A stretch of 64,000 nucleotides of DNA. Origin: Chaetoderma sp. LZ-2023a (Eukaryota; Mollusca; Caudofoveata; Chaetodermatida; Chaetodermatidae). Positions within the stretch are counted from its first letter, which is position 1. Every line of letters starts with the position of its first letter. Below are positions 1 to 63,983 of this stretch, in pieces. The notes beneath the pieces are model-generated. The model saw only the letters and a list, made by a program, of their open reading frames with translations, did no database searches and was not told the DNA's origin. The position numbers and the translations under genes were made by a program. The DNA is taken from the NCBI GenBank assembly GCA_034401795.1, contig CM067366.1, positions 69,556,514 to 69,620,513 on the forward strand. The letters are read 5' to 3'.

Positions 1-54
1 CAGCCTACACGTCACGTAGTAGATTATGACGTCATATGATCGACTGAGAAACTG
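1..54 (+). mobile_element. Pal-A right end, cut by window edge
   Basis: The sequence matches the distal right flank of the Pal-A family: the CACGTCACGTAG stretch followed by ATTATGACGTCATATGAT with an exact TGACGTCA at 27-34. The rest of the copy lies outside the window, and the terminal CTGGAAAGGT is decayed here. Confidence 0.75.
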
Positions 55-450
55 CATTCGTCGGAAAATTTTTGTGAAGCCGGAAAGCTCACGAAGCGTT
101 GTGTATGTATTCGTGTGTATTCGACTGGGCAATCTTCGCGAAACAGTTTTTGTACACTGTGTATATATGGGCCCTGACTTAATAACTGCTGTACGAAAAC
201 TGCCATCCGAATACGCCCAATCCGCTTTCACTTAGAATTACAGTTTTCAGCAATAGCACATAATTCTACCTAAAGTATAGACTTCTTGTTATCATAATTA
301 TCATTTCCACGTTCTTTTGCACGATTATCAAGCATGTGTAAATATTTGAGAACATTTGAAATGAGTACTTCAACGATGCCCATGCGCACTAGCCATTTCC
401 TCTCAGACTCCGTAATATGTACCTCAATTTCAAATGAACCTTGCACGTAG
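55..450. other. No recognisable feature
   Basis: Unique AT-rich sequence. Short open frames of 60-69 codons on both strands show no domain or composition that suggests a protein. Confidence 0.5.
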
Positions 451-530
451 CCTGTTGAATATTTTGAAATTTGTTTTGACTGTACCCTGATGTTGCTGGA
501 GACCGCTTCAGGTTAAATTATTTAAAAAAA
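451..530. mobile_element. Pal relic, left arm of core only
   Basis: CCTGTTGAATATTTTGAAAT followed by a decayed TTTGACTG and TGTTGCTGG matches the left arm of the Pal core palindrome. The right arm is not present, so this is an old truncated copy. Confidence 0.55.
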
Positions 531-1180
531 TTCATCAAAATATTTGTTGCATCGGCGCACAATTCGATGGCCGTCGTCTGTAGCATCGATATGGTTTATC
601 TGGTCAATGCGATAAATGACCATCGACTTCTTGACCGACTGACCACATTTACGTGTTTACGAACATCGGCCACTACGAAGGAGTACCCAGCCATCATCAA
701 AATGATATTTATCACCTTACATTTGTCATTCATTTCAGTCTTTATTGAATGTTTAACGCACGTTTTGATTTCCACCATTGTCAAGTTAATGATTCTGTCT
801 GATGGCGTGATTAATGCTGACAGCTATAACCGGCCAATGATGGATGGCTTCACAGTACGGTGTCCAGTTTGTTTGCAGGTGTGCATGAGTTGCTGGACAA
901 TTGGACGCATTTACCAGGTAACCAAATAAAATTTGAACGTCTCCTTCGCGTTGACTGGGCATCCAGGTCTCTGGTGGATATAGTCTATGTTCACACAGCA
1001 AAGATAGCAATTCATTATACCTGGCATAAATGGGACCTATTTAAATAGGGACGTGATAAATATCAACCAACAACTACTACTAGATTTAATATGAGCGTGT
1101 CATTTGACACTTGACAACAAACATCAAACAACTATAGACATATCGTAAGTTGTCAATACGCATCACTATCCATATAGCAC
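531..1180. other. No recognisable feature
   Basis: A 120-codon frame at 567-929 (+) is hydrophobic but is overlapped by other frames on both strands, has no motif I recognise and lacks exon-intron signals. I regard it as non-coding. Confidence 0.5.
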
Positions 1181-1288
1181 CCCTGATAGCGCAGGTTACT
1201 GGGTTTGTGCTGGGCCAATACCGGACCAAATACGGCCAGACATTGGGCCAGTACCGGCCCCAGAACCTGCATTATCAGGGGCATCATG
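1181..1288. mobile_element. CCCTGATA-type foldback MITE
   Basis: The ends form an inverted repeat: CCCCTGATAGCGCAGGTT on the left, and the complement of AACCTGCATTATCAGGGG on the right. The interior is built of GGGCCAGTACCGG-like blocks. Other copies of the same design lie at 52347-52444 and 56101-56212. The flanking nonamers match at only six of nine positions, so a target-site duplication is uncertain. Confidence 0.65.
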
Positions 1289-1586
1289 CATATTTGTGAC
1301 TTACTAAAGCTAAGATAGGATAAGATAGGTTACTAAAACCTATCTTCTGTCCGAGAAATGAAGAGAAATGTGATATTTTTCACCTTTAATATTTGTCTAA
1401 GCTTTCACTTTCAATCGTTTTCCATACACACAGAAACAACGCTTCCAGAAGCTTTACTCTGTGGATAATGACAAGTTTTGGAAATAGCGCGCTTGTAAAA
1501 CACTCTAAAGCACAATTTTGTTAAGAGCCGAAACCTTCTTGATGGGTAAAGGGATCTATTTCTCGCTGTGTAGTTAAGCTCCTCCA
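1289..1586. other. No recognisable feature
   Basis: Unique sequence apart from a short direct repeat of AAGATAGG at about 1311-1345. No coding signal. Confidence 0.45.
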
Positions 1587-2240
1587 GCTTTGGACACACA
1601 TTTGAATTTGGATGTCTTTGGTGTATATACAATTTTAAGGTAGGCCTACACATTCACACCAAAATGCGTGAAAATAAAATTGTCAAAATTGTATGCTCTT
1701 AGATGCTTAATTTGTTGGCCTAGATGTAATGAAACAAAATAAATCTTAGCATATGGTGATTTCATTCCACACAAATTATTTAAAAAATTTTTATTTCGAA
1801 TTTGAATTAGGGACTCGTGTCTCTAATTTTAATTTAAACGTAATGAAATCATCTAATGTTAAGACTAATTTCGCTTCATTTGATTTAGCCAGCAGTTTAA
1901 GCCTCTAAAAGAGTACAATTTTGAAAACTTTATTTTCAAGCATTCACCTTTGAATGTGCACAGAATAAATATTCTGCTGACTATTTTGAAACTAATTTGA
2001 CGAGGAGCTGTTACACTTCTAGTCAAATTAGTCTTAAAACATTCAACATAATGGTTTTTAATTATATATTCAACAAAGACATACAATTCAAAGTAGCGAG
2101 CCGTTACTGTCGGATCTTTTCCCATTTTCGTGAAGGACCTACGTCATTTGATTGTGAGGTCAGCTAACAAGTGACGTATTTTGACAGAGACGTCAAATAC
2201 TCGAGTGACGGATCGGATCACTTTAGAGAGGGATCTGTAA
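1587..2240. mobile_element. Pal-B-like copy, interrupted by a TTAA foldback element
   Basis: The core palindrome is at about 1970-2052. Unusually, both flanks resemble the same Pal-B side: 1605-1634 is the reverse complement of a motif that recurs at 2066-2095 (AAAGACATACAATTC-like). The copy may therefore be a nearly complete inverted repeat rather than the usual asymmetric element. The right flank runs through TGACGTATTTTGAC-like sequence to about 2240. A second element fills 1635-1960. Confidence 0.6.
1635..1960. mobile_element. TTAA foldback MITE, copy 1
   Basis: Two ~130-bp imperfect inverted arms surround a short AT-rich centre; ATGAAATCATC-like and CATTCACACC/GGTGTGAATG-like segments pair across the element. 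TTAA lies at the left edge (1635-1638) and the right edge is decayed. The sequence is clearly related to 27871-28207. It interrupts a Pal-B copy, so it is the younger insertion. Confidence 0.7.
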
Positions 2241-2370
2241 GATATGTAGTCCTAGTTTTATAACGAGTAGCATTCACTCTTGCTATTTCCATCATATGAA
2301 ACCGAAAGCGTAAAACGGTATTACAAAAATAATATATTCATATTAGTGCACATATTGTATAGGAAGGCAC

Positions 2371-2592
2371 TATCCATTTAATGGCGAAATTCGGTCACTA
2401 AAAATATTTGCTTTTTGAATGTTGTTGCAGGCGAAGAGAAAACTATTTTTGGAAACTTACCACTGGAATGATTATCGAGCCAGTCATTCCAGGGGTAAGT
2501 TTTCAAAGATAGTCTTCTCCTAGCCTGCAAATGGATATCCCTGAATATCACTGCAGAGGTCGATCTTTACCGGATTCGCCATGAAAACGTCA
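2371..2592. mobile_element. HP hairpin MITE, worn copy
   Basis: The hairpin core pairs ACTTACCACTGGAATGA with TCATTCCAGGGGTAAGT. The flanks CATTTAATGGCGAAATTCGGTC and GGTCGATC..CGCCATGAAAACG match the ends of better copies at 11930-12177 and 26999-27231. Terminal TTAA is not preserved. Confidence 0.7.
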
Positions 2593-3184
2593 ATCCCAGA
2601 AATCTCAGTACCTCAATTTAAAGCAAGTATATGTGCAATCTATTGCAGAAAAGGCGAACCATTCTTAAGAAATGCTGAAATAATAAACATTGGGAAAGTC
2701 GACATATGCAGGCCCTCAACGGAATATATTAAGTACAATGCCATGAACACGTGAAATTGGAAAGATATTATAATACTCCAATACGCTTGGAGTACGAAAT
2801 GTTAAGTGGAAGATGGGTGTAATATATTAAATAAATGGCATTCTATTTCTTTGACAAATATAGGCTAACTATTTGTTATGAAGAAAATGCCAATATAAGG
2901 TCCCCGTGAAAGAGAGAAAATTAGAAAATTACCAAAACAAAATCACTGATGCCATTGCTTTGTTAACGGTATCACGTCTAATGCGCGTGCGATCCTTCGC
3001 TTGCTGAGAATGCTGCTGCTGGAAGATGTCTAAGAGGATGTCTAAGACAATAACAATGTTCAATCTTCAGGTACTGTTTAACTTTTCCGGATTAGACATA
3101 TTCATGATCAATCTATCCACTTGGGCTCAAAAGCACTAATATACATGGGGAGGGGTGCATATATAAGGGAGATGGGGGTGGGGG
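2593..3184. other. No recognisable feature
   Basis: Unique sequence with no repeat family or coding signal that I can recognise. Confidence 0.45.
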
Positions 3185-62940: not shown

Positions 62941-63034
62941 ATTTCCTACAGCGTAAATAATTGATTACATTTGGTCTGTAGATTTTAATGTGTTGCTGCA
63001 CACCAGCCATGGAACCAATCTCGCACGTGACCTC

Positions 63035-63405
63035 CAATGGACCTTTCCAGTCTAATCATCCATCATATGATGTCATAATCAATTACATGACGTGTTGGGT
63101 CACGTCATAATTATGACGGCATGAATGACTCGATTTAGTCTGTCTTAAATGCTTAATAGTCCGACGCGTTGTACGAATTGTATGTGGTTGCTATTTAATA
63201 GACATGCTGTTGAATATTTTGAAACTAATTTGACTGAGCGTTGTTGCTACCCTGGGCAGCAACAGCACCCAGTCAAATTGGTTTCGAAATATTCAGCAGT
63301 TTGCCTGTATAGTTTTCCTGGAAATTGATAGTCAGGGAGATCAGGGATCGATCTCAACACGAGCGTGGCGTAGGTGGAGCTTAGCTAGCGATGAGCGGTC
63401 TATTG
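63035..63405 (-). mobile_element. Pal-A, full length
   Basis: The ends are CAATGGACCTTTCCAG and GAGCGGTCTATTG. The core (63207-63300) pairs through TTGTTGCTACCCTGGGCAGCAACA. CREs are mutated to TGATGTCA and TGACGGCA. A ~22-bp direct repeat (GGTCYATTGGATGGTTAA) follows at 63398-63435. Confidence 0.88.
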
Positions 63406-63522
63406 GATGGTTAAACTGGTCCATTGGATGGTTAAGTGATGACGTAATTCAGGTCCACCTGTTTGTTTTTCATTGAGCGCTTGTAATTTTCGTTGCTCAG
63501 TTTCAAGACAGGTAAGTATATA

Positions 63523-63562
63523 GGAAAGCTGTTGAATATTTTGAAACTAATTTGACTGGAAC
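63523..63562 (+). mobile_element. Pal half core with splice-donor-like start
   Basis: GGAAAGCTGTTGAATATTTT and GAAACTAATTTGACTGGAAC end abruptly before the next HP element. Confidence 0.7.
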
Positions 63563-63581
63563 TAGCTATTAGACAAATTCT

Positions 63582-63786
63582 TTAACCCTTTAATTCCCAA
63601 ATTTAGCCAATAAAGAACTGTTTTCTCATCAAAATGCCAATTTATAGACCAAGAGAAGAATGGTTCTCGAGCCCAGCATTCCAGTGGTTTAACTTTCAAA
63701 ATGAGTCTTCCCTTTGTCTGCAAATGGGCATTCCTCAAGACAACGGAGAAGGCCGGTTATTGTAGGTTTCTTCATGAAATGGTTAA
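63582..63786. mobile_element. HP hairpin MITE, tip partly deleted
   Basis: TTAA bounds both ends (63582-63585 and 63783-63786), with TTAACCCTTTAATTCCC on the left and TTCATGAAATGGTTAA on the right. The stem has lost the left half of the GACTGGCTCGG tip. Confidence 0.83.
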
Positions 63787-63862
63787 GAATAATCAACAGA
63801 GATTTCTTAATGATAATGACTTTGACATTTCTGGTCTTTAACTGTGAAATGGCTAAATCAGT

Positions 63863-63905
63863 GTTAACCCTTTCACTGACAAATCTATGAAAAAGGTAAA
63901 TTTTT
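63863..63905. mobile_element. HP left-end scrap
   Basis: TTAACCCTTTCACTGACAAA matches the HP terminus, but no stem follows. Confidence 0.4.
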
Positions 63906-63928
63906 TACGGTATAAAACCTTTTCCGTT

Positions 63929-63983
63929 GAATATTTTGAAATTAATTTCACTGGAGTTGAAATTAATTTCAAAAATATTCAAC
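63929..63983. mobile_element. Minimal Pal core
   Basis: CCGTTGAATATTTTGAAATT and AATTTCACTGGAGTTGAAAT form a 55-bp palindrome lacking the GCTGTTGCTGCC part. Confidence 0.7.

Follow-up and report, generated by a model that had tools for sequence, protein, structure and literature searches.

The piggyBac and piggyBat transposons insert at TTAA target sites. They carry asymmetric subterminal palindromic repeats that are bound by the transposase (PMC11707139), a layout resembling that of the Pal-A family described here; their motif is a different one, and Pal-A shows no target-site duplication. In the bivalve Lucina pectinata, MITE-like consensus sequence 1 resembles Pal-A in having imperfect 30-bp terminal inverted repeats and, at its center, a near-perfect palindrome of 77 bp; its target-site duplications, too, could not be identified (PMC4732748). 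It differs in its length of 210 bp, and the description consulted mentions no CRE/GC-box array and places CREB only among predicted promoter sites (PMC4732748); the likeness between the two elements is one of described layout. The foldback elements Tetris and Galileo are hairpin-forming and nonautonomous and contain internal tandem repeats, as Pal-A does; the Galileo repeats are reported as extra transposase sites, and elements of this type have been linked to satellite formation (PMC4079207). Their arms are terminal, however, and Tetris has 8- to 10-bp duplications, whereas the Pal-A palindrome is central and no duplication was seen (PMC4079207). Mouse IAP long terminal repeats (LTRs) are, like Pal-A, mobile sequences with the exact CRE TGACGTCA, which CREB1 binds when it is unmethylated, and in mouse neurons free of methylation, leaving the CRE out of an LTR reporter halved its activity (PMC9729108). 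The IAP CRE lies in the promoter of a coding retroelement (PMC9729108), whereas Pal-A is a short hairpin element with its CREs in a subterminal array. A literature search pairing TGACGTCA with miniature inverted-repeat elements found nothing.

The window (the whole 64,000-nucleotide stretch analyzed here) contains 24 exact CREs. A chance origin was rejected, as 100 dinucleotide-preserving shuffles gave a mean of 0.77 sites and a maximum of 4. In the tandem-masked window TGACGTCA ranked third among all 8-mers, and the top 8-mer, ATGACGTC, overlaps it. A profile built from 7 copies (E up to 0.01) defined 33 Pal-A-family loci, which together occupy 7,580 bp (11.8% of the window), and 22 of the 24 CREs lie inside these loci or at most 10 bp from them; the other two are at 17197 and 46615. 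With the caveat that the profile itself includes the CRE columns, CRE density is 2.9 per kb within the loci versus 0.035 per kb elsewhere. At least one exact CRE is found in 14 of the 33 loci. The principal copies, located by the profile, and the hairpin of one of them, located by self-match and folding, are the following:

40151 to 40550, plus strand: full-length Pal-A copy, CREs at 40193 and 40223, GC box at 40516 (profile columns 2 to 405, 428 bits)
40326 to 40420, plus strand: 95-bp central hairpin of the preceding copy (opposite-strand self-match, 92.6% identity; fold)
35658 to 36052, plus strand: full-length Pal-A copy, CREs at 35690 and 35737, GC box at 36018
52526 to 52907, plus strand: Pal-A copy without a GC-box unit adjoining its right end, CREs at 52558 and 52568
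63035 to 63405, plus strand: Pal-A copy without an exact CRE or exact GC box
22660 to 23058, minus strand: full-length Pal-A copy, CRE at 23018, GC box at 22685
37986 to 38362, minus strand: Pal-A copy with unmatched left end, CRE at 38334, GC box at 38011
28940 to 29302, minus strand: Pal-A copy lacking the hairpin center, CREs at 29207 and 29221
36147 to 36381, minus strand: partial Pal-A copy (left arm and part of the hairpin), CREs at 36286, 36300, and 36342
44440 to 44911, minus strand: Pal-A copy with about 80 bp extra beside the hairpin, CREs at 44832, 44864, and 44874
28207 to 28674, mixed strand: rearranged Pal-A copy, right half on the plus and left half on the minus strand, CRE at 28600
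59930 to 60298, minus strand: second-subfamily copy (more divergent), CRE at 60256
43660 to 44044, minus strand: second-subfamily copy with extra GC-box units, no exact CRE
33062 to 33422, plus strand: second-subfamily copy, GC box at 33402, no exact CRE
31483 to 31766, plus strand: second-subfamily copy, CRE at 31515, GC box at 31732
1964 to 2198, minus strand: second-subfamily copy, no exact CRE
3369 to 3585, minus strand: second-subfamily copy, CRE at 3571

An earlier note on this DNA had counted the same 24 CREs by eye, with about one expected by chance, and had assigned 22 of them to copies of a dispersed, amplified element. Both counts were recovered, and the family is present genome-wide. 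The six copies that it named lie at roughly the coordinates it gave, with 1, 2, 1, 2, 2, and 0 exact CREs in order of position (8 of the 24); the copy at 63035 to 63405 has none. The GC box GGGCGGGGC that it described for full copies is present in four of these six (at 22685, 36018, 38011, and 40516) and absent from those at 52525 and 63035.

Pal-A is about 405 bp long (404 to 406 columns in the profile and consensuses) and consists, in order, of an imperfect terminal inverted repeat of about 14 bp, a CRE array, a conserved GTACGAATTGTATG block, the 95-bp hairpin, a 21-bp GC-box pair, and the opposite terminal repeat; CREs on one side of the hairpin and GC boxes on the other, as had been claimed, are seen in the consensus. 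Comparison of the ends of 19 copies gave CAATTCACCTTTCC on the left and CAATGGACCTTTCC (reverse complement) on the right, with 2 differences, and the terminal sequences vary in other copies. Up to four CREs occupy consensus columns 33, 43, 75, and 89, and the occurrence of TGACGTCATAATCA at both 43 and 75 places those two in a longer common unit. The consensus of 46 copies has exact CREs at 43 and 75 only, with the GC box at 371. The second subfamily (7 copies, aligned separately) has an outer left region unlike that of the Pal-A consensus but contains TGACGTCATAATCA, TGACGTCA 32 bp further on, and two 21-bp GC-box units. The 32-bp CRE pair is accordingly present in two subfamilies, and exact pairs at this spacing number 24,712 in the genome, against 12 for a reversed-pattern control and about 65 by a chance estimate.

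The common unit around columns 43 and 75 bears on the possibility that the CRE array has no role, the source element having happened to hold a duplicated TGACGTCATAAT unit that then underwent drift and amplification. The loss of exactness at columns 33 and 89 in the 46-copy consensus is in keeping with such hitchhiking. However, both subfamily consensuses preserve an exact CRE at 43 and at 75 (16 of 16 bases versus 23 of 30 for those between or just after them, a by-eye count that is not significant alone), and these two sites are among the most conserved blocks of the 46 copies; we regard hitchhiking as unlikely.

The whole genome (2.44 Gb) contains 398,896 exact TGACGTCA sites, about 12.7 times the expectation, whereas the composition-matched palindrome AGTCGACT occurs 18,597 times, close to the expected value of about 17,071; a simple composition effect was rejected on this basis. 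In a 200-kb sample of the genome, 17 of 33 CREs were inside the family and 16 were outside the detected family. By this small sample, about half of the genomic CRE excess is explained by the spread of an element in which the CRE array was already present.

To judge from its sequence, Pal-A looks like a nonautonomous, MITE-like DNA transposon. Its length falls below the MITE limit of about 800 bp, it has terminal inverted repeats, and it is abundant (190 kb of genome sampled outside one satellite stretch contain 45 loci). No transposase gene was apparent, the 8 open frames in or across copies giving no Pfam match above the cutoff; none was obtained for 27 frames of the window either, and a PDB sequence search returned nothing below E 0.6. 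Scans of viral and prokaryote contig collections gave 0 matches and, concerning the wrong kind of DNA, are little informative. No target-site duplication was seen in 19 copies at k = 3 to 10, a set in which the right end of the 63035 copy is misplaced: in a descriptive comparison, mean best flank matches were 2.74 to 5.89 for a copy's own ends and 2.67 to 5.81 for ends of different copies. With no duplication seen, cut-and-paste is at most a putative mode of integration. The flanks of the 22660 copy have a 7-mer in common. Pal-A does not fit a foldback element, as its terminal repeat is short (about 14 bp), its long palindrome is central, and no 8- to 10-bp duplication was seen. A SINE-type retroposon was rejected, since the ends are inverted repeats and the window yielded no tRNA and no Rfam match at the gathering score.

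Conservation was measured in 46 copies (15 from the window, 14 from random stretches, and 17 of 20 anchored copies), taken as the best nonoverlapping profile matches spanning from column 60 or lower to column 150 or higher, with others dropped; mismatch counts exclude the anchored stretch (columns 225 to 282) and the outermost 15 columns on both sides. Exact CREs were found at columns 33, 43, 75, and 89 in 4 of 17, 18 of 38, 21 of 44, and 9 of 41 copies. At the fourth site, one of the nine is interrupted by inserted letters and is no true CRE. The CREs mismatch less than the average column, both outside CpGs (27/528, 5.1%, versus 1620/10505, 15.4%, for the rest; p = 4.7e-13) and in CpG losses (33/180 versus 360/1209 for all other columns; p = 0.0013), although the aligner may have picked the best among tandem CREs, above all at site 43. 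The difference recurs in the 28 copies with a ACCTTTCC end (p = 1.1e-7 for non-CpG and 0.0075 for CpG positions), and among 285 windows of columns sites 75 and 43 rank in the lowest 2.8% and 6.7% for mismatch.

Other constant blocks are conserved to about the same degree. These blocks were chosen post hoc, with 0.11 as the highest flank mismatch allowed (the CRE at 75, at 0.149, would not qualify), and their non-CpG mismatch is 30/604 (5.0%; p = 1.0 against the CREs) for columns 145 to 160, 40/662 (6.0%; p = 0.53) for a hairpin-arm block, and 24/400 (6.0%) for columns 168 to 176. The GC-box block is slightly less conserved (41/493, 8.3%; p = 0.045, uncorrected). CpG loss likewise does not distinguish the CREs (33/180) from three other well-conserved places (47/237; p = 0.80). 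The losses go mostly to TG or CA, in 28 of 32 losses among 89 dinucleotides of the CREs and 37 of 45 among 117 elsewhere, which suggests germ-line methylation. The two core CREs are retained or lost without visible linkage: among 36 copies, 9 have both, 9 the first only, 8 the second only, and 10 neither. No exact CRE is left in 15 of the 46 copies, including 7 of the 14 randomly sampled ones. With the 12 copies of the window alone, the CREs did not differ significantly from background (p = 0.087 and 0.19). Enlarging the set from 12 to 46 copies changed the result, the CREs now standing clearly above the average column and about level with the other constant blocks.

These figures address the proposal of the earlier note, that Pal-A copies are host regulatory units, either CREB-responsive enhancers or jointly a CREB sink, which neutral decay of the CREs would speak against. 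The check came out divided, with fewer mismatches than in the average column but decay like that of other constant blocks. The genome-wide supply of exact CREs is huge, the CRE bases are conserved above the average column, and the exact motif expected of a CREB-responsive element occurs in the 14 window loci counted above. Against this, the CRE CpGs decay as those of other conserved blocks do, the apparent germ-line methylation would matter because a methylated CRE abrogates CREB1 binding in mouse (PMC9729108), the core sites are lost with no visible linkage, and some copies have no exact CRE left. This comparison does not support the idea of a working regulatory unit, and we consider a host-regulatory role highly improbable. 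Since the CREs decay about like the other constant blocks, they look as if they belonged to the machinery of the element itself and not to a working gene network, and we read the pattern as constraint on source elements rather than maintenance by the host. Some protection after insertion may nevertheless exist, because conservation of the CRE bases exceeds that of most of Pal-A.

Our best guess is that the CRE and GC-box repeats serve the element's own mobilization or transcription. We hypothesize, with roughly even confidence, that Pal-A is a noncoding MITE-like family whose CREs and GC boxes act in cis as subterminal sites that source copies preserve and that decay after insertion. Pal-A would be moved by proteins supplied in trans; a putative binder, either the transposase or a host bZIP/zinc-finger partner, would recognize the sites, which would be retained in source copies because amplification needs them and would be free to decay once inserted. 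The anatomy, the copy number, the layout common to two subfamilies, and conservation at the level of other constant blocks are what the sequences show, and DNA-mediated transposition, the binding proteins, and the need for the sites are what we infer from them. A more specific version, which we think rather doubtful, would make a CREB/ATF-type host factor the cofactor: the 32-bp CRE pair and the 21-bp GC-box pair would bring host factors together in a complex to either side of the hairpin, licensing transposition or transcription under cAMP or stress signaling. Together with other CRE-bearing repeats, the spread of Pal-A would then have raised exact CREs about thirteen-fold, so that CREB would work against hundreds of thousands of sites. 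One short family and other CRE-bearing sequence have lifted the number of exact CREs to about 400,000 in 2.4 Gb of genome. If this is so, a CRE by itself is a poor guide to regulation in the species, and it becomes a testable question how CREB locates its targets there. The Pal-A copies also offer a large natural collection of CRE insertions in which the decay of transcription factor sites can be measured.

CREs and GC boxes are canonical activator sites, and both occur in both subfamily consensuses. The arrays could be a promoter from which an RNA, perhaps a hairpin RNA, is made in germ-line or other cells under the control of two host proteins, a bZIP of the CREB/ATF type and a factor of the Sp/KLF type, and this would aid spread. 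The 32- and 21-bp spacings would be near whole helical turns, and CRE-driven transcription of mobile elements is known from mouse IAP LTRs (PMC9729108). The stable 95-bp hairpin of the earlier note is real, a 400-base copy folding at z = -10.3 against 100 shuffles. In 17 of the 25 listed cores pairing is 84.5%, above the 82.9% in shuffles (0 of 500 as high), and cells changed on both sides number 19 versus 11.5 (3 of 500 as high), values that related sequences can yield without selection. Pairing exceeds the shuffles by a small margin, there is no surplus of pairs changed on both sides (10 versus 7.9; 104 of 500 shuffles), and the window lacks an Rfam match at the gathering score; a promoter role seems to us improbable, and selection on the hairpin may be entertained as a weak possibility. 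A hairpin can do without CREs, as a second hairpin family, Pal-B, shows: its 8 examined loci have zero exact CREs, which speaks against the regulatory unit of the earlier note. A 26-base arm of the Pal-A hairpin has 75,354 exact matches on both strands of the genome, a figure in which both arms of one element can count.

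The count of 24 exact TGACGTCA sites (CREs) in the window that was given in the earlier note was reproduced (shuffle mean, 0.77). A family profile built from seven aligned copies of Pal-A, a dispersed palindromic repeat, marks 33 loci in the window with a total length of 7,580 bp; of the 24 CREs, 22 lie in these loci or no more than 10 bp from them, in agreement with the claim that 22 fall inside Pal copies. The six Pal-A copies named in that note are all present as described; the GC box (GGGCGGGGC) ascribed to them was found in four and was absent from the other two. These six hold only 8 of the 24 window CREs, and one of them, at 63035, has no exact CRE. 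The CpG observed/expected ratio of the window is 0.81, a mild depletion. The Pal-A consensus is approximately 405 bp long and is arranged as follows from the CRE side.

Terminus CAATTCACCTTTCC, then CREs at consensus columns 33, 43, 75, and 89
Conserved block GTACGAATTGTATG, near columns 145-160, after the CREs
Central palindrome, 95 bp, after the GTACGAATTGTATG block
GC-box region, two 21-bp units (TGGGTGGAGCTTAGCTAGAGA and TGGGCGGGGCATAGCTAAAAC), after the palindrome
Terminus on the GC-box side, GGAAAGGTCCATTG, last part

The termini are not uniform from copy to copy. A more divergent subfamily (seven copies, aligned separately) has the same order of parts, including the GC-box pair and a CRE pair at 32-bp spacing, and differs in its left-hand outer sequence and in a portion of the right arm.

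The assembly that includes the window (2,438,752,110 bases, 2,753 contigs), probably that of an animal to judge from its repeats, contains 398,896 exact TGACGTCA sites, 12.7-fold above the ∼31,460 predicted from the dinucleotides of twenty 10-kb stretches, sampled at round positions on C1-C8 only. The control AGTCGACT, a palindrome of the same composition, was found 18,597 times, near the ∼17,071 expected. CRE pairs spaced 32 bp number 24,712 in the genome and the reversed pattern 12. Exact matches to a 26-base segment of the hairpin arm total 75,354 over both strands, a count to which the two arms of one element may each contribute. Family loci (E up to 0.001) hold 17 of the 33 CREs in the 200-kb sample and occupy 8.0% of it, or 5.0% of the 190 kb left without the satellite stretch L018. 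For 9 of the 16 remaining CREs, no match was found elsewhere in the 200-kb sample; the sequence surrounding the other 7, listed by sampled stretch, has matches there.

L014, one CRE, in a weak relative of the Pal-A left arm
L017, one CRE
L024, one CRE
L026, two CREs
L027, two CREs

A second CRE carrier, present at L024:6421-6660 and L026:4065-4304, is a promoter-like repeat whose CCAAT-type boxes, CRE, and TATA box keep a constant order.

Among 12 window copies, the decay of CRE and non-CRE bases was indistinguishable. The comparison was also made in 46 copies (15 from the window, 14 from the sample, and 17 anchored on the exact hairpin stretch), whose consensus has exact CREs left only at columns 43 and 75, the majority reading being TGACATCA at column 33 and TTACGTCA at column 89. 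The exact CRE is kept at site 43 in 18 of 38 copies and at site 75 in 21 of 44, the two being lost without visible linkage (counts 9, 9, 8, and 10; 36 copies), and 15 of the 46 copies are without any exact CRE. Non-CpG bases of the CREs mismatch the consensus at 27/528 positions (5.1%) versus 1620/10505 (15.4%) for the rest (p = 4.7e-13), and CpG positions at 33/180 (18.3%) versus 360/1209 (29.8%) for the others (p = 0.0013). The CREs were again more conserved in the 28 copies with a common ACCTTTCC end (p = 1.1e-7 and 0.0075). This lower mismatch indicates that the CREs are not average Pal-A sequence. Relative to the other constant blocks, they are not special: mismatch is 5.0% at columns 145-160 (p = 1.0 against the CREs), 6.0% in the hairpin-arm block (p = 0.53), 6.0% at 168-176, and 8.3% in the GC-box block (p = 0.045). 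Loss at three conserved non-CRE CpGs (47/237) likewise matches that of the CRE CpGs (p = 0.80), of which 28 of the 32 lost are now TG or CA. We conclude, with reservations, that source elements hold the CREs constant and that there is no clear added protection once a copy is inserted.

Pal-A is most simply read as a non-autonomous DNA transposon, given its inverted ends, its copy number, and the lack of recognized coding domains in its copies. Analyzed as a set, 19 copies showed no target-site duplication of 3 to 10 bp, and a single copy has a 7-mer common to both its ends. The nearest published structure met, a MITE-like repeat of Lucina pectinata, compared by structure alone, likewise has a palindrome at its center and lacks detectable duplications (PMC4732748). 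The literature searched, which mostly did not reach subscription journals, yielded no account of a MITE that carries a CRE array. Transposase-bound palindromic or tandem sites internal to the ends are known (PMC11707139, PMC4079207), as is, in mouse, a mobile element transcribed under CRE control (PMC9729108). Because both Pal-A arrays are subterminal and asymmetrical, we favor putative transposase-binding sites ahead of CRE-driven transcription, but sequence cannot separate binding by transposase from binding by a host factor.

The fold of one Pal-A copy is very stable (z = -10.3). Across 17 of the 25 listed cores, hairpin pairing is 84.5% versus 82.9% when shuffled (0/500 shuffles as high), and cells with both sides changed number 19 versus 11.5 (3/500 shuffles); pairs with both sides changed show no excess over shuffles (104/500). 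This pairing signal is small, and the relatedness of the copies could also produce it.

Stretch L018 (C4:13000001-13010000) is filled by a 51-bp satellite repeated in tandem ∼196 times, in which no exact CRE was found. Its unit resembles one Pal-A hairpin arm, which suggests that the satellite grew from the Pal-A palindrome or the palindrome from the satellite. At L021:3716-4204, adjoining a Pal-A copy, a segment of ∼70 bp from the right (GC-box) arm occurs seven times in tandem, a GC-box repeat expanded locally. Pal-B, a second hairpin family in the window with ends like TTAACC...GGTTAA and a long central palindrome, has no exact CRE in any of the eight loci examined.

2351-2606, Pal-B
11900-12200, Pal-B
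13290-13520, Pal-B
26970-27260, Pal-B
33450-33740, Pal-B
61430-61700, Pal-B
62170-62410, Pal-B
63560-63810, Pal-B

Broken reading frames at window positions 3916-6446 look by eye like a non-LTR retrotransposon reverse transcriptase; four of them gave nothing above the cut-off against Pfam. An inverted frame pair at 39544-39933, with KRKVKEAIEIYKHQPTMNRDEGYRIPAVYQSMLSR common to both frames, had no Pfam match and presumably resembles the end of a retroelement protein. The window also carries very long micro- and minisatellite arrays.

57251-59164, satellite array
21365-22127, satellite array
42597-43566, satellite array
52987-53689, satellite array
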